From NCBI GenBank assembly GCA_949284445.1, contig CASDVP010000005.1, positions 1-64,000 of the forward strand: a DNA stretch of 64,000 nt, in the 5' to 3' direction. The notes beneath the pieces were generated by a model. It was not told the origin of the DNA. It saw only the letters and a list, made by a program, of their open reading frames with translations, and did not search any database. Source of the DNA: an uncultured Bacillota bacterium (GTDB lineage: Bacteria > Bacillota_I > Bacilli_A > RFN20 > CAG-288). Shown here in pieces: positions 4,575 through 52,430 of the stretch. How positions within the stretch are numbered: the stretch's first letter is position 1; each line of letters starts with the position of its first letter. The position numbers and the translations under genes are program-made.

Positions 4575-6230
4575 TCATAATTTTTCAAAAAGGCCAATCA
4601 AAGATTCAGCCCCTTGATATGGACCTTTCTTTCTATCTAAAGAAAGTCTGGTGTAGAGTTTACCGATAGGGATATGATCATCAAAAAGCTTATTAAAATA
4701 TTTATTGATATAAGAATGGACCTGTTCTTTTCTTTGTAAAGGTCCGAAAGGATTAGCAAAATAAGTCGATACTAACCCTTTCTCATTAGTGGTGTTTAAG
4801 GCGACTCTTTCACCTTTTTCAAAATCGCGAATCGCCGTCTCGACATCTTTATAAATCTCGATACCTTTGACAGTATCGGTGTAATTATCTGCTAATAAAA
4901 AGGCATCTACTTTATGGAGAGTATAAGTCATTTCAAAGTCTTCGATCGGGATGACCACACGTGAATTATCTTCATCAATATTCAAATAAACTGCGCGATC
5001 AGCAGATCTCAAAGAATAGCCTTGGTCTAAATCATCTAAACGGACAAAGGCACCGATCTCAGTTCCAGTCGCATATACACCATCTTTTAATAGGTGGAAA
5101 GTACCCATGTCATCAAAGATGGTTTCGACTTGATACTTTTTCTTATATAGCAGTCTAATGGCTTCTAATGTTTCGCTCTTACCAGCGCCTGAATCACCTA
5201 AGAAGAACAGATTTTTGGTTTTATCACCGCGTCTGATCCTGATACCGGCACCATGAATCGGAAGAAGTTTTCTATCGATCATGACCAAATTAAAAAGGGT
5301 CAAAATCATTTTTTTAGCATAGCCGAAATAATCGATTTTCGCTTCTTTAGGACAGACACCTATATAAGTGTTTTTGTCTTTGTAATAATAACATTTATCA
5401 CCTGAATTCTCAGTTCCGAAGAGGAGGATGAATTCGAAAGGTTTCTTGTCGCTATCACAGTCATAAGGCTCGACTTGGAAGAGATTTCCTAGTGCTACTA
5501 AAAATCCTAGATAATCTTTATGAATGATAACTAAACCGCGAGTATCAAAGATATTTATGCATAAAGCATAACAATTTTCCTGATCGAGCTGTTCAGCAGT
5601 GATGGGTTTATCTAACTCAAAAAAGATACCTTTTCTTTTGTTCTCTTTAGTTTTGATGATAAATGGTGGCTGAGTCACTAGAGATTCTAAAACCGGAACC
5701 GATTTTAAGTAGTTTAAAGATTCTGGAACCTGTAATTCTTTTTTGTTGAGAAGAATACCAGCATTACCACCCGATGGTAAGACGCGATAGATCGTCTGTT
5801 CACGTCCGAGTATTGTTTCATATATGGTTCGATAGAAAGTGATTATGTGATCCGCAAATTGATTGAATTTATGAATGAATTCCTGATGACTGATTTTTTT
5901 ATCGCTTGAATTATCAAAGAAAACATAACGATTTAATCTTCTCCAATAATCGTATAAGGAATCCACTAAATTTAACAATTCATCCTGTTTGTGCTTGGGA
6001 AGATTTTTTATCCTTTTTAAGGTTTCTTCATCTTTTTGCAATATTCGTTTGAAAAAACTGCGGATCGATTTAGCCTCATAATCGTGGAAGAAGGAGGAAT
6101 TAGGCTGTTCGAAACGTTTTGATTTACGATAATACTGTTTAAGAAAATTAAAAAAATCTTCGCTTTTTAATATTTCATAAGGCGTCAAATCATCGGGAAT
6201 CGAATTTAAAGAAACTGTATAATTACTCAT
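4575..6230 (-). CDS. HPr kinase/PEP carboxykinase-like P-loop protein, 551 aa
   Basis: The C-terminal half carries a nucleotide-binding loop LGDSGAGKSET (about 342-352), preceded by HGAGIRI. This is the arrangement of HPr kinase/phosphorylase (HG...GxSGxGKSE) and its structural relatives, the PEP carboxykinases. FDDMG (about 370) would be the metal-binding acidic motif. A 340-residue N-terminal region has no motif I know. It is much longer than HPr kinase (about 310) and similar in size to ATP-dependent PEP carboxykinase, but the standard PckA loop (GLSGTGKTT) is absent. It overlaps the aminotransferase by 8 bp and follows a 2-hydroxyacid dehydrogenase, so the three form one operon. Enzymatic role unknown. 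Confidence 0.65.
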   Translation of the reverse strand: MSNYTVSLNSIPDDLTPYEILKSEDFFNFLKQYYRKSKRFEQPNSSFFHDYEAKSIRSFFKRILQKDEETLKRIKNLPKHKQDELLNLVDSLYDYWRRLNRYVFFDNSSDKKISHQEFIHKFNQFADHIITFYRTIYETILGREQTIYRVLPSGGNAGILLNKKELQVPESLNYLKSVPVLESLVTQPPFIIKTKENKRKGIFFELDKPITAEQLDQENCYALCINIFDTRGLVIIHKDYLGFLVALGNLFQVEPYDCDSDKKPFEFILLFGTENSGDKCYYYKDKNTYIGVCPKEAKIDYFGYAKKMILTLFNLVMIDRKLLPIHGAGIRIRRGDKTKNLFFLGDSGAGKSETLEAIRLLYKKKYQVETIFDDMGTFHLLKDGVYATGTEIGAFVRLDDLDQGYSLRSADRAVYLNIDEDNSRVVIPIEDFEMTYTLHKVDAFLLADNYTDTVKGIEIYKDVETAIRDFEKGERVALNTTNEKGLVSTYFANPFGPLQRKEQVHSYINKYFNKLFDDHIPIGKLYTRLSLDRKKGPYQGAESLIGLFEKL

Positions 6231-7401
6231 CAGTCAATCTCCTTTTGAGTTCAGCGATTTCAGAAAGATTTAATCCAGAAACAGCGATGCGAATATGCTT
6301 ATCATCGATAGGAGCAAAATAGATATCTTTGCGCTCTAATTTTTGACAGAAACTGAGACTATCTTCCACTTCAAAAGTCAAATAAAATCCACCTTTATAT
6401 GGATGATGAGCGATGTTTAAATCATCTAAAACGTGAACAAGGGCTGTTCCTATGATTTTTAGTCTTTGACTCTCTTTTAAAAGCTTTTCACGGACTTGTT
6501 TTTTAGCGTTTTCATCATTAAAAAAGATCGACATCGGACCCATAGCACCGTTATTGGCACAACTATATGTGCCTCTGGCATAGGCTCTCATATCTTCTAG
6601 ATGATGGTTTATATTGCTTCCTTTAGGTAGCAAAGATATCAATGCTCCAAGACGAAGCCCATATAAACCAAAAGATTTAGAACAAGAGAATATCAAGTGG
6701 ATAGGAAAAGTAGCTGAGTTGTGCAAGATATGGTTGATATAGAACTTTTCAAGCGGATCGTAATCGATGTAGGCGATATCTAAAACGAGTGATACTTTGC
6801 CAGCATATTTTGATAGTAAATCAAAGAGTTTTTGATAATCTGTGTCGCTCATACAATATCCTAATGGGTTATGGCATGGGTCATTTATTATTAAAAGGAT
6901 ATTGTTATATTTGATGAGATCTTCATCAATTTTAGCTCTAATGCTTTCAATATCTAAACTACCATTTTTAATAAAAGTATATAAATCAAATGGTAATCTA
7001 TTCTCTTTAGCAATAGTGTCATAATTAGGCCATCTGATGTCTGAGAATAATGCTAAGCCACCATTATCAGCTGTTTGATGGAAGATCATCGATAAAGCAC
7101 CAGTTCCACCTAATGTCACACCAAAGGCGATATCATATAGTTTCTTAATTGCATCAATCCGATCTTGGAATAGCCAGTCTAAAACACCATCTTGATATTC
7201 TTTAGAACCTAAGACAGCAGGGTAAGACAAGTAATCGACGAAATTATTTTTAATTTTCTCATTTACTTCTGCATACACACAGAGTTTTTTGTCATCGTGA
7301 AAAAGCATTCCGGCACAGCCATTGATCACTTTATGACCGTTTTTTTGGCTCGCAACTGCTCTTTCTTGAATCGACAGGATGTCATACTTTAAGTCGCTCA
7401 T
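6223..7401 (-). CDS. PLP-dependent aminotransferase, class I (aspartate/aromatic type)
   Basis: A 392-residue fold-type I aminotransferase. Motifs in order: GGTGAL (cofactor phosphate region, about 100), NDPCHNPLG (about 190, the conserved Asn), DIAYIDYD (about 220, the Asp that binds the pyridine nitrogen), SCSKSFGLYGLR (about 238, with the cofactor lysine) and HIRIAVSG (about 372, the carboxylate-binding Arg). SKSFGLYGLR resembles the AspC/TyrB subgroup. The start has an AGAGGTTTAAT ribosome binding site. It sits 9 bp behind a 2-hydroxyacid dehydrogenase, suggesting amino acid to 2-oxo acid to 2-hydroxy acid conversion; the substrate is not shown by the sequence. Confidence 0.85.
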   Translation of the reverse strand: MSDLKYDILSIQERAVASQKNGHKVINGCAGMLFHDDKKLCVYAEVNEKIKNNFVDYLSYPAVLGSKEYQDGVLDWLFQDRIDAIKKLYDIAFGVTLGGTGALSMIFHQTADNGGLALFSDIRWPNYDTIAKENRLPFDLYTFIKNGSLDIESIRAKIDEDLIKYNNILLIINDPCHNPLGYCMSDTDYQKLFDLLSKYAGKVSLVLDIAYIDYDPLEKFYINHILHNSATFPIHLIFSCSKSFGLYGLRLGALISLLPKGSNINHHLEDMRAYARGTYSCANNGAMGPMSIFFNDENAKKQVREKLLKESQRLKIIGTALVHVLDDLNIAHHPYKGGFYLTFEVEDSLSFCQKLERKDIYFAPIDDKHIRIAVSGLNLSEIAELKRRLTDE

Positions 7402-7410
7402 ATTAAACCT

Positions 7411-8352
7411 CTATAAATTGATAAGTTTCAGATTATTTTTAATAGTTTCAGCCGATCGTTTTAATAGTTTCAGTTCAGAGTCATCGAGGGGATAATCAGT
7501 GACTATTTCAATACCTTTACTAGAAATTCTAGTCGGAAGTGAGATCGCTAATTCGCCGAGATGATATTCATCGCTAACAACAGTTGATAAAGGTAATATA
7601 GTTTCTCCATCACTTTCTAAAGCTTCGATGATAGTTGCGATTGTATTTCCGATACCATAATAGGTTGCTCCTTGAGTTGAAACGATATCAAAGCCGATCT
7701 TTTTAACTTCATCGTTGATTTCTGAAATAAAAGCATCATAAGGAATGTTTTTTTGCTTGAGATATGAACTTAAACTTTCATTTGAGACAACAGTTTTAGA
7801 ACCGACGATAAATGAACTTTCACCATGTTCACCTAATACTGGACCAGAGATCTTTTGAGAATCGATGTTAAACTTCTCAGCAAGGATAGAATGATATCTC
7901 ACGGTATCTAATAAAGTGCCTGTTCCGATGATCTGTTTTTTTGATAGATCAGAGTATTTCCAAAAAGCATATGTCATCAGATCTAAGGGATTTGAAGCTA
8001 TTATCACATAACCTTTATAGCCTGAGTTCTTGAAATTATCAGCGATTGTTTTGACGATTTGATCTGCTTTCTTTAAACCGTTTAAACGAGTAGCACCACC
8101 AGCTAAACTTTGACTAGGCCCAGCTGTGATGATCACATAATCATACTCGTTAAGATTTTCATAGGTTCCTTTATCGACTTTGATATCTTGAAATATTGCT
8201 GAATGTCTTAAATCATTTATAGCACCGAGCAATAAAGTCTCGTTGACATCTAACAAATGAATTTCCTGAACTAATTTTTTTAATATCAATGAATAAGCAG
8301 CAGTGCTGCCGACATGGCCGCAACCGATGACCAATGCTTTTCTATTTTTCAT
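7411..8352 (-). CDS. L-lactate/2-hydroxyisocaproate dehydrogenase family protein
   Basis: A 313-residue NAD-dependent L-2-hydroxyacid dehydrogenase. It has the Rossmann motif GCGHVGSTA (about 10), NPLD (about 127), GTGTLLDTVR (about 148, with the catalytic Asp and the substrate-binding Arg) and GEHGES (about 174, the catalytic His). The loop that sets substrate specificity reads PSQSLAGGATRL, longer and glycine-richer than QKPGETRL of typical lactate dehydrogenases, so lactate may not be the substrate. GTGTLLDT resembles 2-hydroxyisocaproate dehydrogenase. I chose ATG 8352 over the in-frame GTG/ATG at 8358/8355 because it is best spaced from GAGAGG. First gene of a three-gene operon. Confidence 0.8.
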   Translation of the reverse strand: MKNRKALVIGCGHVGSTAAYSLILKKLVQEIHLLDVNETLLLGAINDLRHSAIFQDIKVDKGTYENLNEYDYVIITAGPSQSLAGGATRLNGLKKADQIVKTIADNFKNSGYKGYVIIASNPLDLMTYAFWKYSDLSKKQIIGTGTLLDTVRYHSILAEKFNIDSQKISGPVLGEHGESSFIVGSKTVVSNESLSSYLKQKNIPYDAFISEINDEVKKIGFDIVSTQGATYYGIGNTIATIIEALESDGETILPLSTVVSDEYHLGELAISLPTRISSKGIEIVTDYPLDDSELKLLKRSAETIKNNLKLINL

Positions 8353-8424
8353 CATCACCTCTCTAGATTACAATATATTTTACGCAATTTAACTCGTTGT
8401 TGCATCAAGAAAGTGCATTGATGT

Positions 8425-8453
8425 TTGAAACTTATATTTACTAAAAATATAAT
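8425..8453 (+). promoter_or_regulatory. Near-consensus promoter giving a leaderless mRNA
   Basis: TTGAAA (8425-8430), 17 bp, TATAAT (8448-8453), then 7 nt and the ATG at 8461. Transcription would begin at the start codon itself, with no 5' leader. Confidence 0.75.
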
Positions 8454-8460
8454 AAAAGCT

Positions 8461-8958
8461 ATGAAAATACTTGTTATCAGTGATTTGCATAATGATGTAA
8501 AGCGGACTGAGGAAATCCTAAGCTACTATGTCGATCAAAAATTTGATAATTTGTTCGTCCTTGGTGACATAGGTTATCTTTGTGTCAACAGTTTGAACAG
8601 ATTTGCTAAAGATATAACAGCAGTATTAGGTAATAACGACGAATATGGACCGACTGTTGAAAGCGCAGATTTTCCATTACCATACGTCAACTATGCGTAT
8701 AGATTTAATAAATTATTCGTTTTGACCCATGGGCATCGATATGATGAATATAATTATTCAAAGCCTTTTGATATCATGCTGATCGGACACACTCATGTGA
8801 AAAAACTCTATCAAGATTACCAAGGACATATCATTGCGAATCCTGGCTCGATCACTTACCCTAGAGATGATTGCCCTTCATTTATGACTATCGACGAGAA
8901 AGGAATTAAATTACATGATTTCATCACTAAAAAGGTCTTGAGTGAATTAGTATTTTAA
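8461..8958 (+). CDS. YfcE/MJ0936-type metallophosphoesterase (first of two)
   Basis: A 165-residue calcineurin-like phosphodiesterase. It has the metal-site motifs SDLHND (about 6), LGDIGY (about 41), GNNDE (about 62), THGHR (about 93) and GHTHVKK (about 111). Proteins of this family hydrolyse phosphodiesters with two metal ions, natural substrate usually unknown. The start is ATG 8461; the longer frame to TTG 8425 would begin inside the -35 box. There is no ribosome binding site. A paralogue follows 18 bp downstream and is probably co-transcribed. The pair is divergent from the dehydrogenase operon. Confidence 0.8.
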   Translation: MKILVISDLHNDVKRTEEILSYYVDQKFDNLFVLGDIGYLCVNSLNRFAKDITAVLGNNDEYGPTVESADFPLPYVNYAYRFNKLFVLTHGHRYDEYNYSKPFDIMLIGHTHVKKLYQDYQGHIIANPGSITYPRDDCPSFMTIDEKGIKLHDFITKKVLSELVF

Positions 8959-8976
8959 AATTGAGGGGAGAAACAT

Positions 8977-9513
8977 ATGAAATTATTAATCGGTTCAGAT
9001 ATTCACGGTTCCTACTATTATTCTTCATTATTCTTTAAAAAAGTTGATGCTTATCAACCAGATAAAATCATTTTATTAGGAGATTGTTATTATAACGGAG
9101 CTAGAAATGATCCGCCTATGGAATATGCTCCGAAGAAAGTCGTGCAATTATTGAATGAGTACTCGGATAGAATCTTGGCTGTCAAAGGAAATTGTGAATC
9201 AGAAGTTGATCAGATGGTTTCTGATTTCACCTTTTTTGAAAATTTATGTGTGTTCGCTTTTAATAAAGTCATAACTTGCACTCATGGTTACCATTTGAAT
9301 TTTGAAAACCTTCCAAAAAAGCCTGGAGATATTTTCTTACAAGGACATACGCACATCGGTCGATTGGAGAAAAAAGATGGTTTGATCTTGGCTAATCCCG
9401 GTTCTGTCTCATTGCCAAAAGATGGTCATCATTCATATATGACGATGGATGATAAAAAGATTCAATTGATCGATTTATTAACTGGTGAAATATTAAAAGA
9501 ATTATATTTTTAG
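8977..9513 (+). CDS. yfcE: YfcE-family phosphodiesterase (second of two)
   Basis: A 178-residue metallophosphoesterase closer to E. coli YfcE in length and pattern: GSDIHGS (about 6), LGDCYYNG (about 35), KGNCESE (about 70), THGYH (about 99) and QGHTHIG (about 120). It has a GAGGGGAG ribosome binding site, unlike its upstream neighbour. The two share the fold and ending (NPGS...P...SYMT/SFMT) but differ widely in sequence, so they are an old duplication or independent family members. It converges on a VTT-domain membrane protein gene 3 bp away. Confidence 0.85.
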   Translation: MKLLIGSDIHGSYYYSSLFFKKVDAYQPDKIILLGDCYYNGARNDPPMEYAPKKVVQLLNEYSDRILAVKGNCESEVDQMVSDFTFFENLCVFAFNKVITCTHGYHLNFENLPKKPGDIFLQGHTHIGRLEKKDGLILANPGSVSLPKDGHHSYMTMDDKKIQLIDLLTGEILKELYF

Positions 9514-9516
9514 TTA

Positions 9517-10293
9517 TTAGTTCTTTGACTTTTTCTTATTTAACAAGCCTTTTGTTAAGTAATAAATCGGTCCTTCTTCTTTCGCACGCAAATATTGGTA
9601 GTATCTGTAGCTGATAAAGGCGAAAATGCTAAAAACAATAATGGCTACAACGATGATAGTGATCCACATCCACCATGTGAATTGACTGTAATCGAAGAAA
9701 TCAGTTCCTAAAACACATATAGTTAATGCGCCGATATTTCTAAATATTAATGTGCAAACTAAATTGTATAAAAAACTCATATTTGTCATACCGACTACTA
9801 AAGCTATAGTATCATCGGGGAAAAACGGTAAAAGATAAGCGGCTGGTAATAGTGCTTTACCACCAGCTGTTAAGAGTTTTTTAGTTTTTTCACTGACATC
9901 TTTACCTATAATCCAATCAACAAGCTTTTTTCCACCATATCTTCCGATTAAAAACATCAAAGAAGAAGTCAAGGTGATCGATGCTGCGCATAAACCGAAT
10001 GCCTTTAACATACCAACCGTAGTCTGATCGTTGAACATAAGATTTGCCAGCGTGATGAAAAACATCGAAGAAATTCCGGGTATTAGATTGATGATTGGGG
10101 AAAGTGTGAGAAATAAAACTACCGCAAGAACTGTATTCTTTTCAGCCCATTCCTGGAAGAATCCTGTCAATTTTCCTTCACCCGAAAACATATTGAAAAT
10201 ATATGCAGCTACTAAAACGATTGTCAAAATGACCATCACTACGACAATTGCTTTAACAAGTACCTTTTTCCAGGTTTTTTCTTTTTTTTCCAT
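9517..10293 (-). CDS. TVP38/TMEM64 (VTT domain) membrane protein
   Basis: A 258-residue polytopic membrane protein of the VTT/DedA-like superfamily. A helix near the N-terminus (about 15-37) is followed by the VTT region (about 60-190) with LSPIINLIPGISSMFF, GRYGGKKLVD and LLPFFPDDTIALVVGMT, which match the re-entrant-loop motifs of TVP38 proteins. The C-terminus has a further helix and a basic tail. The reading frame is open upstream into the tRNA-Leu gene, so I chose ATG 10293, only 13 nt after the tRNA 3' end and without a ribosome binding site. Members are thought to move lipids or small solutes; this one is uncharacterised. Confidence 0.75.
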   Translation of the reverse strand: MEKKEKTWKKVLVKAIVVVMVILTIVLVAAYIFNMFSGEGKLTGFFQEWAEKNTVLAVVLFLTLSPIINLIPGISSMFFITLANLMFNDQTTVGMLKAFGLCAASITLTSSLMFLIGRYGGKKLVDWIIGKDVSEKTKKLLTAGGKALLPAAYLLPFFPDDTIALVVGMTNMSFLYNLVCTLIFRNIGALTICVLGTDFFDYSQFTWWMWITIIVVAIIVFSIFAFISYRYYQYLRAKEEGPIYYLTKGLLNKKKSKN

Positions 10294-10306
10294 AAATATA
10301 AAAAAA

Positions 10307-10392
10307 TGCCGACGACAGGACTTGCACCTGCACGGAATTTTACTTCCAAGAGGTTCTAAGCCTCTCATGTCTGCTGATTCCATCACGTCGGC
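10307..10392 (-). tRNA. tRNA-Leu (anticodon TAG)
   Basis: An 86 nt cloverleaf with acceptor stem GCCGACG/CGTCGGC, discriminator A, anticodon loop TTAGAAC, a long variable arm (class II) and T-loop. The CCA end is not encoded; six T follow directly. Confidence 0.9.
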
Positions 10393-10433
10393 AAATAAAG
10401 CTTAGTTATTATATCAAACTAAAATTGAAAACA

Positions 10434-10736
10434 CTATTTTGTTTTATCAAATTCTTGGCCTTTATCAGTGCTGTTCGCTCTATTTTTGGCATAATTAGAG
10501 GCTAGTGTCATAAGAAGAACCGAAAATAATAAAATCACAAGAATGATGCCACCAGTGATCGTCAAAGGAATAGCAGCAGGAATAGTTTCTTTATTAGGTG
10601 GTAAGAAAATAACACCAGTCAAAAACATGCCAGCAGCAATCAAAAATAATACTGTGGTGGTTATGCAATAAATGATGATACCTTTTTTACTGATGTTGGC
10701 GATTTTGACTAAAAATTTGTTAAGTAGTTTTTTCAT
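10434..10736 (-). CDS. Hypothetical two-helix membrane protein, 100 aa
   Basis: It has a basic N-terminus and two hydrophobic helices (about 18-43 and 52-77) joined by a short loop with PPNKET. The C-terminal tail is polar and charged. There are no motifs. It lies between two tRNA genes (Leu upstream in coordinates, Arg on the other side), 9 bp from the tRNA-Arg, so it could share a transcript with the tRNA. No clear ribosome binding site. Function unknown. Confidence 0.5.
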   Translation of the reverse strand: MKKLLNKFLVKIANISKKGIIIYCITTTVLFLIAAGMFLTGVIFLPPNKETIPAAIPLTITGGIILVILLFSVLLMTLASNYAKNRANSTDKGQEFDKTK

Positions 10737-10745
10737 AGATCATTC

Positions 10746-10820
10746 TGTGCCCGAAGGGATTTGAACCCTTGACACTAAGCTTCGGAGGCTTATGCTCTTT
10801 CCGAACTGAGCTACGGGCAC
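10746..10820 (-). tRNA. tRNA-Arg (anticodon CCG)
   Basis: A 75 nt cloverleaf: acceptor GTGCCCG/CGGGCAC, D-arm GCTC/GAGC, anticodon loop CTCCGAA, T-arm GGGTTCAAATCCC, discriminator A. CCA not encoded. Confidence 0.9.
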
Positions 10821-10895
10821 AAATCAATAGTTAACATACGCTAGGAAAGAGAAAAAAGCAAGAAATATCAATTGTTTGGCTGGTTTTAAAAAAAA

Positions 10896-10970
10896 CGCTC
10901 CCAATCAGATTTGAACCGATGACCTACCGCTTAGGAGGCGGTCGCTCTATCCAGACTGAGCTATGGGAGC
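10896..10970 (-). tRNA. tRNA-Arg (anticodon CCT)
   Basis: A 75 nt cloverleaf: acceptor GCTCCCA/TGGGAGC, anticodon stem ACCGC/GCGGT with loop CTCCTAA, discriminator G. CCA not encoded; the gene is followed by a T-run. Confidence 0.9.
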
Positions 10971-11053
10971 AGTAGGAAAAGTATACCATATCTTTTTTTG
11001 CACTGAACAAAAAAACTCAAAATTGCTAATGTTAAGTGAGGGGAGCTTAAAAT

Positions 11054-12886
11054 ATGAAAATTTTTAAATCTTTATTTTTAATAACACTCTTATTGCCATT
11101 AGGAGCGAGCATACCACAAATCACCAAGGTGAGTAAAAAGAGACTTCTTGAATATGATGGCGATTATAAGAGTGTCTGTGTCAATGGAAATCTTAAATAT
11201 GAATCACAACACAATTTTTTGCCACAAGGTTTTTATGGCAATTATCCTGATTCAGGAATTGTTGAAATAGGTGGAAAAGCTGGTGATATCAATGGAAAAC
11301 CCATACCGCAATTAACCTGGTCAAAAAGTGGCAGATTTATGGCATCTATTCAATTTGAGAAAGATCCTCATCAATTTAATACAGCTGAATATATTGGTAA
11401 ATTAGGTTTTGAAATGTCAGTCGAGATACCAGGACAAGGTGATCTGATCGTCAATAATTTTGTTCAGGCTAAATCCTTTGATGATATTTTTATAAAAAAT
11501 GATGATGTTTATTCCTTTCCAGCTAATTATCCTTCCAGCTTAATCTCACCATTTATGACGTTTTGGACTGAGGCACATGCTGTTTTATTCACTTTCAATA
11601 TGTATGAAGGGTATAAATTGAATTATATACGTTTGATTTATGGAGATTGCCCAGAAGCGATCCTTAATGCCAGCATTTTTGAAGAAGTGAATAATCCAAT
11701 TCCCTTGATCAATGAAAAATATACAAAAAATGATTGTAGTAGAGAAAACTATACTGTCAGTGTCGGTACTAGTCCGGTTTATAATTTAGTCAGCCAATAT
11801 GGAACAGTCTATTCGAAGGATTTTTTGCTAAACGCTTTTGCATTTCGAGACGAATATGATGGCGAATGGCACCACATCACTGAGGTGGAAGATCCTGACA
11901 ATTATTTCACATATGGTGCTAAAGCAGATATAGGTAGTAAATTTACCATCTATTTGGTCGCAAGAGATAAAGCTGAAAACATCTCAAAAATAACTATAAA
12001 TTTCACTGTCCTTGATAAAAGAGCACCGACAGTACAAGCTATTGATAAAAAAGTTAAAAAGGTATCATATACCACTGATTTGAATTCAAGAGAATTTATC
12101 GATCGCTATTTTTTAGTGAAAGATAATTATGATCAAGAACTTTCGATAAAGGTAAAATTGCAGTCGGGATTAGATGTACCAACAGGTCAAATAGGTTCTT
12201 TTCCTTGTCGACTTATCGTCAGCGATAGTTTTCAAAATATAACGACACTAGATTTTGATTTAGAGCTTTATGATGATGTTTGTCCGATCATCGAGTCCGC
12301 ACAAGATGAAATGATCTTATCACCGACTAAAAGCGTTAGCGAAACATATATAAAAAGTTTATTTACTGCTTATGATGAAATAGATGGAGAGTTAGAAGTC
12401 GAAATCACTACGAATGAATATTCAGGTCATGAGAATGAAATAGGATCACATTTAGTAGAGGTTAAGGCGACCGATTCTTCAGGAAATATTGCAACTAAAA
12501 AGATAATCATCCTTGTTCAAGATAATGAGGGGCCGATTTTCTATGCTAAAGAATCATTTTTAACCGTTACACAAGGCGATGTGCCTTCCCTTGACGAAAT
12601 CACAGAATCATTGATCAGACAAGGATTAATCCCTAATAAAAACTACATGACTAAAGAGATTATCGAAGGTGAGGATTTGACAGATGATTTATCAGTCGGA
12701 TTATACCAGATGAAATTACATTTGGTAGCTGATGATCAAAGCGAAGAACTTGTTATGTTGACGATAAAAGTTATTGAGAAAGAAGATATCAATGTCATTG
12801 ATAAGTCTATCAGCTTTTGGGAAGCCATCATTCAATTTTTCATCAATATCTGGAATAAAATTGTTGAATTTTTCACTGGGAAATAG
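11054..12886 (+). CDS. Secreted multidomain protein with Ig-like (DUF5011-type) repeats, 610 aa
   Basis: The N-terminal signal peptide (KSLFLITLLLPLGAS, residues about 5-19) indicates export. Residues about 30-230 form a beta-rich domain I do not recognise. From about 250 onward there are at least three Ig-like units of the DUF5011/HYR kind, shown by repeats such as DKRAPTVQAID, DDVCPIIES and DNEGPIFYA at domain starts and ATDSSGNIATKK at a domain end. The last ~25 residues (FWEAIIQFFINIWNKIVEFF) form an amphipathic or membrane-associating helix. No LPxTG sorting signal is seen. Ribosome binding site GTGAGGGGAGC. Probably a surface protein; ligand unknown. Confidence 0.7.
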   Translation: MKIFKSLFLITLLLPLGASIPQITKVSKKRLLEYDGDYKSVCVNGNLKYESQHNFLPQGFYGNYPDSGIVEIGGKAGDINGKPIPQLTWSKSGRFMASIQFEKDPHQFNTAEYIGKLGFEMSVEIPGQGDLIVNNFVQAKSFDDIFIKNDDVYSFPANYPSSLISPFMTFWTEAHAVLFTFNMYEGYKLNYIRLIYGDCPEAILNASIFEEVNNPIPLINEKYTKNDCSRENYTVSVGTSPVYNLVSQYGTVYSKDFLLNAFAFRDEYDGEWHHITEVEDPDNYFTYGAKADIGSKFTIYLVARDKAENISKITINFTVLDKRAPTVQAIDKKVKKVSYTTDLNSREFIDRYFLVKDNYDQELSIKVKLQSGLDVPTGQIGSFPCRLIVSDSFQNITTLDFDLELYDDVCPIIESAQDEMILSPTKSVSETYIKSLFTAYDEIDGELEVEITTNEYSGHENEIGSHLVEVKATDSSGNIATKKIIILVQDNEGPIFYAKESFLTVTQGDVPSLDEITESLIRQGLIPNKNYMTKEIIEGEDLTDDLSVGLYQMKLHLVADDQSEELVMLTIKVIEKEDINVIDKSISFWEAIIQFFINIWNKIVEFFTGK

Positions 12887-13164: not shown

Positions 13165-14268
13165 TTAATATTCTATTCCTGTGACGATTCGTTTAATGTT
13201 TTCATCACTTAAAAAAACCATCAATTGATCTTCATTAGTGATCACTACATCTTTAGTGGCTTGATAGAATAAATTGATCAAACGATCTTCTTCAGTTTCG
13301 GCAGTTTGATAGTTTGTATCATCAAAGCCCATCAATGACTCGTTGATCAAAGTTAATAAATATCTTCTGATCAGGCATAAAATATCAGTCTCTATCCAAT
13401 AAGAGAATGTTGAAGAGCTTAAACGATCAGCATATTTTTTGGCTTTTATGTAAAGTGGTAATGCTTCTTCGGCACTGTGATAGATATCAAAGAAAATATA
13501 ATTGAATTCAGAATTATCTTTTAGTGAACTTAAATATTCGAAGGCATCAGCTTTTATGACTTTGATCTTGTCAGTTTGCATCTGAGGAGCAATTTTCTCA
13601 TTGAACAGATCGATCACAGCTTGTTCTTTTTCAATAACGATGACTTCAGTGACATCAGATTTTAAAGCTGCTCGGTATGGAAAATAACCTAAACCTAATC
13701 CTAATGCCAAAACTTTGCCCTTGCTCATAGTGATCGCATTCTTCATGGTGTTGATCTCATGAGGCGTGATCAGCATGAAGACTTCGTTATTATGTAGAAC
13801 TTCTAAGTATGGGAAATTTTCTGTGAAAAAGCCAAGAGAAGAAATTTCCGCATAGTTTTTACCGGTTTTCAGAGAGTCGAAAATAAAGCCTTCAAAAGGT
13901 TCGTAAAAATTATATTTGATCTCCCATTCACCTTTTTTAGAAATATGCGGATGAATATTCTTTATATATGGGTCTGATAAATAGTCATCAGGATTTAATT
14001 TATATACTTTTGAGAATTGGCAAGAACTTTCAATAGCAGCAAGTTCATCGGGATCGTTGATTTCTAGCACGTTTAGAAATGATTGATAAAAAGCGTCTTC
14101 TAAATCGCTGCCATCGCTTTTGATATCATCTATCATCTTCTTATCAATATAGTTATAACGGTCTGTCAAATAAATGTTGTACAAATCGCTAGCCTCTTGA
14201 TTCAACTCAAGCTGTCGCATTAATTGGTTGATGCGTTCATTTAATTTGTGATTATTTATGATTTTCAT
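13165..14268 (-). CDS. Spermidine-synthase-like SAM-dependent methyltransferase family protein, 367 aa
   Basis: The middle of the protein has a class I methyltransferase core: LALGLGLGYFPY (about 189-200, SAM-binding loop), VIVIEKE (about 213, acidic end of strand 2), IKVIKADAFEYL (about 237) and FNYIFFDIYH (about 255). Order and spacing resemble spermidine-synthase-like proteins. A ~170-residue N-terminal region is unknown. The acceptor substrate cannot be told. The start lies within 40 bp of the first S10-operon promoter, facing away. Upstream TTGGTG-17-TATTAA ends 10 nt before the ATG and no ribosome binding site is seen, so the mRNA may be nearly leaderless. Confidence 0.65.
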   Translation of the reverse strand: MKIINNHKLNERINQLMRQLELNQEASDLYNIYLTDRYNYIDKKMIDDIKSDGSDLEDAFYQSFLNVLEINDPDELAAIESSCQFSKVYKLNPDDYLSDPYIKNIHPHISKKGEWEIKYNFYEPFEGFIFDSLKTGKNYAEISSLGFFTENFPYLEVLHNNEVFMLITPHEINTMKNAITMSKGKVLALGLGLGYFPYRAALKSDVTEVIVIEKEQAVIDLFNEKIAPQMQTDKIKVIKADAFEYLSSLKDNSEFNYIFFDIYHSAEEALPLYIKAKKYADRLSSSTFSYWIETDILCLIRRYLLTLINESLMGFDDTNYQTAETEEDRLINLFYQATKDVVITNEDQLMVFLSDENIKRIVTGIEY

Positions 14269-14292
14269 GCTTTATATTTTAATATTTTCTGA

Positions 14293-14298
14293 TATAAT
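14293..14298 (+). promoter_or_regulatory. Possible distal -10 box of the S10 operon
   Basis: TATAAT at 14293-14298 with a weak -35. Its predicted start near 14305 falls at the first copy of the duplicated leader element (14307). Confidence 0.35.
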
Positions 14299-14306
14299 TG
14301 TCACCA

Positions 14307-38232: not shown

Positions 38233-38238
38233 TATAAT
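38233..38238 (+). promoter_or_regulatory. -10 box of a probable leaderless transcript
   Basis: A perfect TATAAT lies 6 nt before ATG 38245; a weak -35 (TTTATC, 38210-38215) is at 17 bp. No ribosome binding site is present. Confidence 0.5.
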
Positions 38239-38244
38239 TAGCAC

Positions 38245-39285
38245 ATGGAAACTTGGGGTATTGTCTTAATTGTTATCATTCTTATATGCCTGTTATACTT
38301 GCTGTTATGCTTTGCAATTCTATTTCTTGTTTGCAAAAAACTTTTTTGGGTTCGGGGAACAGATCCAGATAATCCATGTTATTTACGGTTTGAAGATTAT
38401 CCGTTTCTCAAAAGGGAAGAATATGTTTGCGGATATTATGGAAAAGCGATTCGCGGTTATCTCTATTCTGATAAAAATGTCATAAATCCAAAAGGTTTTA
38501 TCATTTTATCACATGGTTTTTTTGGAACCCATGTGCAATACTTACTTGATATTTCAATGCTTGCTAAAGCAGGCTATTTAGTTTTAGCTTATGATCAATA
38601 CGGATGTGGTTTGAGTGATGGTAAGAATCAAGATAACCTTTCCGTTGCTATATTTGTCTTAGAGAATGTCATTCATGATGTTAATAAACGTCATCTCAAC
38701 AATGACTTACCAATATATTTATATGGTCATTCTTGGGGAGGCTATGCAGTTTCTGGAGCTTTGAAAAATTATGGAGATATAGTCAAGAAAGCAGTTGTCA
38801 GATCTGGCTTTGTATCCCCTGTAAAAGCTGGTCTCAATCTTTTGAAAATGAAATTTCCAAAGTTCAGTATATTTATCAGTCCGGGAATTTATATCTCATA
38901 TTTTTTCTTTTTCGGAACTAAAGGTTTTACTAAAGGAACAAGCGGTTTAAAAAAGAATCATAAGACAGAAGTTCTTTATATATATGCCAAGAATGATAAG
39001 ATGATCGACAACAAGAATTCATTGACTACTTACTATGCTAGACATCATCATAAAAATGCTGAATTATTTGTCACTGAAACTGGTGCTCACAATTCTTTGC
39101 TTTTAGAAGAGGGACAAGAAAATTATCATAAGCTGGTGAACACTTATAAAAACATTCAGCAGGAATCTGATGAGGTGTTAAGAAAAAAGAAGGAAGATGA
39201 CTTCCTTCTCAATCTCAATCGCGTTCAACAATATCCGTATTGTGATGAAGTTAAAAATGAAATACTCAGTTTCTTGGATGATTAA
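38245..39285 (+). CDS. Membrane-anchored alpha/beta hydrolase
   Basis: 346 residues. A hydrophobic N-terminal helix (about 5-27) anchors an alpha/beta-hydrolase domain. Motifs: HGFFGTH (oxyanion strand, about 92), LYGHSWGGYA (nucleophile elbow with the catalytic Ser, about 165), an acidic residue in AKNDKMID (about 253) and TGAHNSLL with the likely catalytic His (about 275). Serine lysophospholipase-like proteins have this layout. The last ~50 residues are charged and helical. Its end overlaps the convergent tyrS by 4 bp. Substrate unknown. Confidence 0.75.
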   Translation: METWGIVLIVIILICLLYLLLCFAILFLVCKKLFWVRGTDPDNPCYLRFEDYPFLKREEYVCGYYGKAIRGYLYSDKNVINPKGFIILSHGFFGTHVQYLLDISMLAKAGYLVLAYDQYGCGLSDGKNQDNLSVAIFVLENVIHDVNKRHLNNDLPIYLYGHSWGGYAVSGALKNYGDIVKKAVVRSGFVSPVKAGLNLLKMKFPKFSIFISPGIYISYFFFFGTKGFTKGTSGLKKNHKTEVLYIYAKNDKMIDNKNSLTTYYARHHHKNAELFVTETGAHNSLLLEEGQENYHKLVNTYKNIQQESDEVLRKKKEDDFLLNLNRVQQYPYCDEVKNEILSFLDD

Positions 39286-47252: not shown

Positions 47253-49674
47253 TGGTGTCCTCCTCTTGAAAGAAGCGTGTTAATGTTGCTTTTACTTGAC
47301 TAGGGGAAATAGCTTTTATAGCTTGTGGATAAATTTCTTTGATGATATCCCTATAGATTTTATAATTAAATCTTTGATCAATAAAGAAAATAAAGCCTTT
47401 ATCTGTCTGTGTTCTGATAACACGCCCAGCCGCTTGTAACACTCTGTTAAATCCAGGATATGCATAAGCGTATAAATACCCCTTTTGTGGGTTTTGTTCA
47501 TCTTGATAATACGATTTGATTTTGTCGCTTTCATAATTGATTTGTGGAATGCCGACAGAGATGATAATGCTGCCAATCAAGCGATCGCCGATGAGGTCAA
47601 TACCTTCCGAGAATACGCCTCCTAAGACTAAAACACCGACCGTAGTTTTGATATTATCTTCTCTGAATGAGCTTAAAAATATATCTTTGTCTGTATCTGA
47701 CATTTGTTTTGTTTGATAAAAAATATCGATATCTAAGTCGTCATTTTCAAAATAAGTTCGCAGATCATTCAAATATTCATATGAAGGGCAATAAACAAAA
47801 TAATTACCTTTTTTAGCAGAGATACTTGCTTTGATCAGTTCATAGATAGAAGCCATATTTTGCTTTCGATATTCATATTTCAAAGAGTGATTAGTATCGA
47901 TAAGAACCTTACACCGCTCTTTTGGAAAAGGTGATTCTAGTAACAGAATATCGTAGGTGTCATCTTTATCCCCACCTAGCAAATCAATGTAATACTCTTT
48001 AGGTGAGAGGGTTGCTGAAAAGAAAACAGCTGATTTGAAATTTTGTAATGTCTGTTTGATATATGGCTTGCTAGCGATATTTGCGATACGTAAAACGGTC
48101 GGTTCAAAGTCAGAATTCAAAATGAAATAAACACAGAAATTTTTACTGTTTTCTTCATCAGATGAAATGGTATATATATCATCAAAATCCATCAATTTGT
48201 AGAAAAAATCCATCAACTTATCGTCGACAGGTTCATATTTTGAGCCATCAGGATTAGGATTCTTTTTAAGTATAGCTTTAAAATCAGTTAAGATATCGCA
48301 TAATAAATCTGAAATATTTAATGGGACTTCTTCAACTTCAAAAACATTTTCTTTATTTTTCTTGATATTATCCATATCGATTGGAAAATTTAAAAATGCT
48401 TTTTTTAATTTGTTAAGTTTGCGATGAATTTTCTTTAAATATTCACCTGAAGTTAAATGATATGCTTTTTTGATATCATCAATCGTTATTTCAACGGAGT
48501 AGATATCTCTGACACGATCTGGTAAATTATGACATTCATCGATTAAAAGATAATCATTGCCCCTAATAGTGTCATCAAGAAATTTTAACGTTGTCGAATA
48601 ATTGAAGATGTATGAGTAATCGCAGATGAGCACATCAGAATATTTAGCTAATTCAAATTGAAAATAATATGGGCAGATCTGCTTTTCATAACAGATCTGT
48701 TTTATAGCACTTTTATCAAGCATCTCATTTGAATATAAAGCATCGAGGACAGAGGTTAATATTTTGTCATAAAAAAATTGTGCAAAAGGACATTCATCTG
48801 GATTACAATGTCCTACCTTATCATTGAAACAGATATTTTCTTTGCTTGTAAATTCTAAACAGCGGGCTTTAGATCCTAAAAGTGTAAATAACTTCAATGT
48901 TTGAACAGCGATTTTTTTAATCGAATTTTTACTAGTCAAATAAAAAATATGATCTGCTTTGTCATCAACAAAGCGTTTTAAACTAGGATATAAAACTGAA
49001 ACAGTTTTACCGATACCAGTCGGTGCTTCGATATAAACATTTCTTTCTTCATCTTGGGCCTTTTTTACAAAGTCAATCAGGCGTTTTTGACCTTTTCGAT
49101 ATTCTTCAAATGGAAAAGGTATGTTTTTCCATGACTCGTTTCTTTCCTCTTTTAGCTTTTTAATTTTTTTGATGAAATTGACATAACGAATCATCAAGTC
49201 ATTTATGTAATTGCTGACTTCATCAAAAGTGTACAGCTTAGTTATGCGCTTCTGTTTAGAAAAATTATTTTGACTGATATATGTCAATATCACTTTTATT
49301 TTGTCCAAAGCTTGTTGCTTAGCAAAAAAATAAGCGTAAAACATAGCTTGACCTAAGTGCCATTCGCTTTGACTAGAAATAAACGAATCCAAATCTGAAT
49401 TTGTTGTTTTTATTTCTTCTATACACCAATATTTATTATCGAAAAAAATGCCATCAGCTTTTCCCGAGACTTTACAAAGAAAATTATCGATTTGAAAAAC
49501 TCCACCAAGCGGTATTTCTGATTGGTATGTTTCACTTTGTTGATCTTGATATATACGATGGAGTGATGAACCTTCATTCATACTAGCTTGATTAAAGATT
49601 CTAGTATCTAAATGACCTCGTCTAAGAATAGTATCAACAACTTCATGTACTGAAATATTTAATTCATAATTCAC
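47242..49674 (-). CDS. DinG/XPD-type DNA helicase fused to a PD-(D/E)XK nuclease domain
   Basis: 810 residues. N-terminal domain (about 1-170): KADGIFFDN then CIEEIKTT matches a Cas4-like PD-(D/E)XK core (D...E-x-K). Helicase: motif I APTGIGKT (about 220), iron-sulfur Cys region [15 protein letters not shown] (about 285) with ICPYYFQ, motif II DECHN (about 381), motif [16 protein letters not shown] near the C-terminus. Rad3/XPD superfamily 2 helicases unwind 5'-3'. Starts with GTG 49674; TAAAAT lies 7 nt before it with no ribosome binding site. Confidence 0.85.
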
Positions 49675-49716
49675 GTCTAATATTTTACCATTTTATTACT
49701 AATTTTATGATGACAT

Positions 49717-51690: not shown

Positions 51691-52395
51691 TTATTCTTTT
51701 GTTTCTGCTTTATTTACGCGATAAACAGGATAGATTATTGCTAATAATATAAAAATCGGTATCAGAAGAGTTAACTTTATTTGTTCACTATTATTTAAAT
51801 TCACGATAAAGGCATAAACGGTTATTGCCCCTGAACAAAAGAAGATGAGAATACTTAGATAATCCAAACAGGTTTTTCCATATGACTTATCTTTAAATTT
51901 GATGAAATCAGCAAAGTTTTTAGCTAAATTTGATAAGAGATTCGTCATCATTGTTGTCGCATATGTGTGACCATGCAATTCTCTAAAAGTAAAATACTGA
52001 AATGCGCTAAACAGTGTCAATAGGGCGCTACATATATAATGGATAGGTAATGGGCTACTTTCTATCTTTTGCACTTTTATAAAGAGCAATGGTAATAGCA
52101 AAATTATTTGTATAGTAATAGAGAATAGTTCAACTCTTATTTTTTTCTTGAGCAAAACTAATTTTAGGAATTCAGCTAAAAGAATACCGATAAAAAATAT
52201 TAAAATCATCAGAGCGTGATAGCCGGCTGATACTAGGTCTCCATCGATCAAATCTGTCATTGTGTAAATCAAATTACCAGTTTGCATACCGGAAAATACG
52301 CCAGATAGTTGAATTGAATATAATTCGATAAAACCCCCTATGAATGATAGTAAAATTGCGATGATGAGTTCTAATACACTTTTATTTTTAGTCAT
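51691..52395 (-). CDS. YoaK-family (DUF1275) membrane protein
   Basis: 234 residues with six hydrophobic helices. The conserved N-terminal SFIGGFIELYSIQLSGVFSG, then MQTGNLIYTM, matches DUF1275 (GGxxDaxsyl..g.FvanMTGNtv). The mid-protein RELHGHTYATTMMTNLLSNL is the second family motif. Start at ATG 52395, not the upstream TTG: TTGTTT-17-TATACT ends 6 nt before it, so the mRNA is probably leaderless. Function of the family unknown. Confidence 0.78.
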   Translation of the reverse strand: MTKNKSVLELIIAILLSFIGGFIELYSIQLSGVFSGMQTGNLIYTMTDLIDGDLVSAGYHALMILIFFIGILLAEFLKLVLLKKKIRVELFSITIQIILLLPLLFIKVQKIESSPLPIHYICSALLTLFSAFQYFTFRELHGHTYATTMMTNLLSNLAKNFADFIKFKDKSYGKTCLDYLSILIFFCSGAITVYAFIVNLNNSEQIKLTLLIPIFILLAIIYPVYRVNKAETKE

Positions 52396-52401
52396 AAACA
52401 A

Positions 52402-52430
52402 AGTATAGTGCTATAAAAAAATTAAAACAA
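52402..52430 (-). promoter_or_regulatory. Promoter giving a leaderless yoaK-type mRNA
   Basis: On the - strand TTGTTT (52430-52425), 17 bp, TATACT (52407-52402), then 6 nt and ATG 52395. Confidence 0.65.

Follow-up and report, generated by a model that had tools for sequence, protein, structure and literature searches.

A predicted leaderless yfcE-type gene and recurring leaderless-type starts in a lineage of uncultured gut bacteria

Loading of the ribosome on a 5'-terminal AUG is known from leaderless mRNAs of other bacteria, and sigma-A promoters start transcription about 7 nt after their -10 element. According to the passages of Zheng et al. (2011; PMC3160421) that deal with Firmicutes, 56 of 209 genomes of this group contain predicted leaderless genes, which average 4.2% of genes and come mostly from Lactobacillales and Mycoplasma. 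The parts of two other reports that list such transcripts give measured 5' ends lying exactly on start codons for nine transcripts of Mycoplasma gallisepticum (PMC4245973) and for nine genes of Mesoplasma florum (PMC7745072).

Leaderless genes with TAtAAT signals have already been predicted in some Firmicutes, and the yfcE-type gene starting at ATG 8461 of the window (the whole stretch of 64,000 nucleotides that was analysed) adds to them. In view of the survey figures quoted above, the statement of an earlier note on this DNA that leaderless mRNAs are rare in well-studied Bacilli has to be softened. For the lineage studied here, a literature search found no paper on leaderless genes, the name of its order not being established for such a search.

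Promoter and start codon of a yfcE-type operon

The gene heads a two-gene operon whose features, all on the forward strand, are as follows.

8402..8431, +: block upstream of and over the -35 element, GCATCAAGAAAG(T/C)GCATTGAT(G/A)TTTGAAAC, conserved in G014, the closest relative, apart from two changes counted by eye
8425-8430, +: -35 element TTGAAA, 5 of 6 consensus positions; TTTGAAAC kept in G014
8425..8460, +: in-frame extension of 12 codons from TTG 8425, considered spurious and untranslated
8431-8447, +: spacer of 17 nt between -35 and -10
8448-8453, +: -10 element TATAAT, 6 of 6, 17 nt past the -35
8454-8460, +: discriminator AAAAGCT, 7 nt from the -10 to the ATG
8461-8463, +: start codon ATG
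A8461 or within about 2 nt, +: putative transcription start, from the promoter/ATG geometry
8461..8958, +: YfcE/Metallophos_2 phosphoesterase, 165 aa, predicted leaderless
8963..8970, +: Shine-Dalgarno sequence (SD) GAGGGGAG of the second gene
8977..9513, +: second YfcE paralogue, 178 aa, of leadered/SD type, downstream in the same operon

The arrangement TTGAAA-17-TATAAT-7-ATG without ribosome binding site, described in the earlier note, was found at exactly these coordinates, and no SD-like motif is present in the stretch from 18 to 5 nt upstream of ATG 8461. The promoter matches 11 of the 12 hexamer positions, and its 17-nt spacer lies within the 16-18 nt expected for sigma-A (sigma-70). 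Its hexamer score alone is ordinary: a loose scan of positions 5000-12500 gave 33 sites against 30.5 in shuffles, TTGAAA-17-TATAAT at 8425 being one of two 11-of-12 matches. The whole composite, TTGAAA-17-TATAAT-7-ATG, has a single exact occurrence in the window. When up to three mismatches are allowed, it is found 23 times in the window versus a shuffle mean of 11.7 (sd 3.3), and none of 100 shuffles reached 23. Over the whole 1.47-Mb genome, TTGNNN-(16 to 18)-TATAAT-(6 to 8)-ATG gives 9 matches against 1 for the reversed pattern. The unusual feature is the promoter combined with an ATG at 7 nt, not the hexamer pair alone.

The mRNA of this gene very probably starts at its start codon or next to it. 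A housekeeping sigma-A-type promoter would adjoin the gene, and RNA polymerase would begin on or beside the A of ATG 8461, so that the message would begin with AUG, with a leader of 0 to about 2 nt, and enter the leaderless route of translation. The ribosome would load directly on this 5'-terminal AUG, in the manner of other leaderless mRNAs, and continue into the second gene of the operon, which has its own SD.

The product and its first residue can be placed by comparison with protein families. The 165-aa protein scores above the curated cut-offs of Pfam PF12850 (78.6 bits, cut-off 27) and of NCBIfam TIGR00040 (68, cut-off 56.25), and both alignments run from residue 1 of the protein that begins at ATG 8461. 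For the phosphodiesterase equivalog PRK09453, whose cut-off is 117, it stays below with 88 bits, while the downstream paralogue reaches 179.6. Residues D8, H10, G35, D36, G57, N58, D60, H90, H110 and H112 are invariant in 15 orthologues, G109 and M1 being nearly so. The metal-ligand motifs of the superfamily are DxH, GDxx, GNxD and GHxH. Furthermore, a profile of the protein finds E. coli YfcE (1su1) and MJ0936 (1s3l/2ahd) among solved structures. Judging by these profiles and residues, the product is a YfcE-type metal-dependent phosphodiesterase and ATG 8461 is the family start.

The paralogue pair is adjacent in 14 of the 15 orthologous loci (all but L015). Upstream, a divergent lactate-dehydrogenase-like gene adjoins the 8461 gene; among relatives, in loci that include at most about 1.5 kb of flanking DNA, it is adjacent only in G014. 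The block at 8402-8431 contains CATCAA-9-TTGATG, possibly an operator between the two divergent genes, although no operator is claimed. A search for a corresponding regulon in 14 genomes of the genus found the exact core only in the own genome (G000) and in G014, and in none of the other 12; the other matches have one or two mismatches and look scattered.

Conservation of the arrangement among orthologues

Orthologues were searched in the 23 genomes of the family; 15 of them, the own genome included and all of the same genus, have a match at E<=1e-25. Upstream of the aligned start, a strict -10 hexamer was read as one with T, A and T fixed and at least 5 of 6 positions matching. In 10 of the 15 loci (L001, L003, L004, L005, L006, L009, L010, L011, L012 and L015) such a hexamer precedes the same ATG by 6-9 nt and no SD is found; the more GC-rich genome G006 (GC of 0.49 in its sample) is represented among them. 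L007 would be an eleventh case, with a weaker hexamer. The signal that marks a leaderless or "TA-led" gene is kept at its distance in these orthologues, ten strictly and one weakly. The length of the gap varies among the ten and the flanking sequence has diverged; the arrangement is kept, its surroundings are not. Gaps of 8-9 nt, seen in L004, L005, L006, L011 and L015, would give a leader of about 1-2 nt rather than zero. It should be stressed that these orthologues are related and that 10 of 15 does not represent as many independent events.

The strict hexamer is absent at 6-9 nt from L007, L008, L013, L014 and L016. Neither hexamer nor SD is seen in L008 and L014, and SD-like motifs are present in L013 and L016. 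The trait is therefore not fixed in the genus. The geometry and the ten conserved loci nevertheless support the claim of the earlier note that ATG 8461 would be the first transcribed codon.

The same orthologues bear on the upstream TTG. As called mechanically, the ORF spans 8425-8958, and its first codon is an in-frame TTG lying within the -35 box. Translation could in principle start there, from a promoter located further upstream, TATAAT 8448 then being a chance product of an AT-rich coding stretch. The frame from TTG 8425 is indeed open in both the own genome and G014, and a promoter-like site matching 9 of 12 positions lies at 8346-8374. However, the TTG is present only in these two genomes (L001 and L003) and absent from the other 13 orthologues, and four of the 15 (L007, L009, L011 and L015) have a stop codon no more than 5 codons before the ATG, which rules out an N-terminal extension there. 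In addition, no SD precedes the TTG in the sequence examined, the family profiles begin at ATG 8461, and the 12 extension codons differ between the own genome and G014 mostly at amino-acid-changing sites (by eye). These observations make a start at TTG 8425 quite improbable and agree with the earlier note, which had regarded this TTG as spurious; the extension is probably not translated. Gene callers that expect an SD miss or misplace leaderless starts, and the in-frame TTG would here add 12 false residues.

Leaderless-type starts elsewhere in the genome and the lineage

Further starts of the same type in the window are as follows.

14266..14304, -: GTGACA-17-TAAAAT-7-ATG 14268, leaderless-type start of a 367-aa protein without family match; TAGAAT-7-ATG in G014
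38233..38247, +: TATAAT-6-ATG 38245, leaderless-type start of an alpha/beta hydrolase; kept in G014
49672..49690, -: extended -10 TGG-TAAAAT-7-GTG 49674, leaderless-type GTG start of a DinG/Rad3-type helicase; kept in G014
52393..52407, -: TATACT-6-ATG 52395, leaderless-type start of a DUF1275 protein; kept in G014

An in-frame TTG (52401) lies just upstream of the last of these starts and sets the same trap for gene callers as TTG 8425.

To count such starts, a 464-kb sample of the own genome (the window plus 400 kb) was used, with ORFs of at least 100 aa taken from their first ATG, the start being chosen without -10 information. The 119 ORFs without SD have 20 hexamers starting at -14 to -12, versus 5.25 expected from positions -40 to -17, and the 224 SD-bearing ORFs have 4. 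To some extent this contrast is circular, as an SD does not fit where a -10 occupies that place, and the count was therefore repeated over all ORFs against neighbouring positions. For the 343 ORFs of the own genome, 24 hexamers lie 12-14 nt before the ATG versus 7.5 from neighbouring positions (p=1.3e-6), or 20 versus 5.1 when the window is excluded. The same count gives modest excesses in G014 (15 versus 8.4, p=0.025) and G006 (8 versus 3.6, p=0.031), and a very strong one in G063, a genome of family f5 with a GC content of 61% (14 versus 0.3, p=4e-19). The values are 3 versus 5.7 in G031 (family f3) and 7 versus 4.5 in G029 and G034 together (family f8, p=0.17). Against a broader background, from -40 to -18, which includes real leadered promoters, no excess is significant except that of G063. 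The loose genome pattern TANNNT-7-ATG, with 1409 matches, was discarded as too unspecific.

In G063 (loci L137-L140 and L171-L180), a GC-rich genome, the -10 peak is very sharp and lies at -12; it concerns 13 of 75 ORFs without SD, often with TATAAT, then 6 nt ending in GC, and then the ATG. The 14 different products of leaderless-type genes include a helicase, hydrolases, HAD phosphatases, NAD synthase, IspE, ATP-grasp and ABC transporter proteins as well as unknowns, and no common functional theme was found among them.

In the sample, 99 of the 343 ORFs have neither an SD nor a near -10, which means that other kinds of non-SD initiation must exist in this genome. The yfcE-type gene could thus use ATG 8461 on a longer leader, made from another promoter, and be translated without SD by S1- or structure-based initiation. 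This is unlikely, since a -10 that was not used would hardly be expected to be selectively retained at 6-9 nt across the genus and to recur at the same distance before other genes.

Comparison with the sister species G014 gives further indications. Among 89 start-aligned orthologue pairs, taken at 60-95% identity, conservation is 6 of 6 for hexamers at -14 to -12 and 41 of 69 for those at -60 to -15 (one-sided p=0.053). With the GTG-start helicase at 49674 added, the arrangement is conserved in G014 for each of the seven leaderless-looking genes that are informative. Two pairs of L100 genes, 98-99% identical, were set aside as uninformative, and the matches of L106, L110 and L111 and the second match of one L100 gene were not counted, being distant paralogues with 30-41% identity. 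The base before the ATG is also biased: with G000, G014, G006 and G063 pooled, 45 of 55 leaderless-type starts have a pyrimidine there, versus 197 of 339 other starts without SD (p=4e-4), although taken singly the excess is significant in G006 and G063 only (p=0.13 in G000, p=0.39 in G014). A pyrimidine at this place fits a Y-R start site in which transcription would begin on the A.

The distribution of the arrangement in the order was studied by comparing TATAAT-(6 to 8)-ATG with TATAAT-(12 to 14)-ATG on both strands of 196 genomes, the counts being those of motifs anywhere and not at annotated genes. The main control was the 12-14 nt spacing rather than the reversed pattern, since a promoter is always located upstream of its gene. 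The shorter spacing is in excess in genus g1 (1192 versus 913; 13 of 15 genomes higher), in the rest of family f1 (613 versus 520; 8 of 8), in f5 (13376 versus 10040; 132 of 141) and in the one genome of f7 (192 versus 130). Differences are not significant in f2 (412 versus 368) and f6 (221 versus 211), and no excess is found in f3 (2878 versus 2919; 9 of 18), f4 (602 versus 654; 0 of 4) and f8 (985 versus 1012; 2 of 4). In the same way, 105 further genomes that belong to the class but not to the order show no overall excess (21015 versus 21589). The only clear one there is that of family f25 (10 genomes; 1873 versus 1624), and it is uneven among members: it is strong in G270 (121 versus 67), G276 (150 versus 62) and G300 (135 versus 99), and others lack such an excess. 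The records of the members of the order come from rumen and gut samples.

By this crude count, the own genome alone shows almost no excess (119 versus 112), and its case therefore rests on the gene-level and conservation tests. That figure, like the shuffle-level number of loose promoter matches, is what would be expected if an AT-rich genome sometimes placed TATAAT near an ATG by chance. Chance is nevertheless an extremely improbable explanation, given that the arrangement is kept in two thirds of the orthologues, G006 included, that the exact composite occurs only once in the window and that the hexamers peak over neighbouring positions.

Besides promoters, tRNA genes may provide nearly leaderless messages. 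On the reverse strand, the SD-less ATG 10736(-) of a 100-aa membrane ORF lies 8 nt past the 3' end of tRNA Arg-CCG (10745-10821), and the SD-less ATG 10293(-) of a VTT-domain protein lies 12 nt past that of tRNA Leu-UAG (10306-10393). The longest ORF of this VTT-domain gene, 9517-10386(-), starts at GTG 10386 and crosses the tRNA-Leu gene; ATG 10293 is more likely its real start. The same tight junctions, of 8 and 10 nt, are seen in G014 (L122), and in the sample of the own genome 5 of 26 tRNAs have an ORF of at least 80 aa starting within 40 nt. Processing of the tRNA 3' end would leave nearly leaderless mRNAs at such junctions, an arrangement comparable to the tRNA punctuation of mitochondria.

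Taken together, the sequence comparisons suggest that, in this lineage of uncultured gut bacteria, genes with leaderless starts form a minor class that recurs. With slightly better than even confidence, families f1 and f5, whose GC contents range from about 35 to 61%, can be said to carry a stable leaderless class of roughly 5-7% of ORFs that most relatives of the same class lack, tRNA-to-ATG junctions of 8-12 nt being a second source of nearly leaderless messages. If so, leaderless expression would be a trait of whole lineages, which acquired or retained it within a class that otherwise uses SDs. As the trait varies between families, and as within one genus the same gene has it in some genomes and lacks it in others, these bacteria lend themselves to natural comparisons of how leaderless expression is gained and lost in SD-using Firmicutes.

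Comparison with described systems

The product belongs by sequence profile to the same fold family as the YfcE-family structures 1su1 and MJ0936 (1s3l/2ahd), with the DxH, GDxx, GNxD and GHxH motifs invariant or nearly so. Unlike these, it is encoded here by the first, predicted leaderless, member of a tandem of diverged paralogues.

As regards expression, the -10-adjacent ORFs of Deinococcus-Thermus, as presented in the part of PMC12340547 concerned with them, are alike in that their leaderless mRNAs arise from a -10 box immediately before the ORF. They represent about 30% of ORFs there, versus an excess that is estimated here at about 5% of the ORFs in the sample, and in contrast to that mode the 8461 gene also has a good -35. 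The leaderless transcripts of Mollicutes were established experimentally and in another lineage, and no yfcE case is seen in the relevant parts of PMC4245973 and PMC7745072; the present ones are predicted from sequence.

The closest likeness is with the TA-led genes of the Firmicutes passages of PMC3160421, which have a TA-like -10 about 10 bp before the start (TAtAAT in low-GC Firmicutes), lack an SD and make up a few percent of genes. The 8461 gene likewise has a -10-like signal about 10 bp upstream and no SD. However, the Firmicutes cases of those passages belong to Lactobacillales and Mycoplasma, whereas those described here belong to families of an order of uncultured gut and rumen Bacilli and were traced gene by gene across species.
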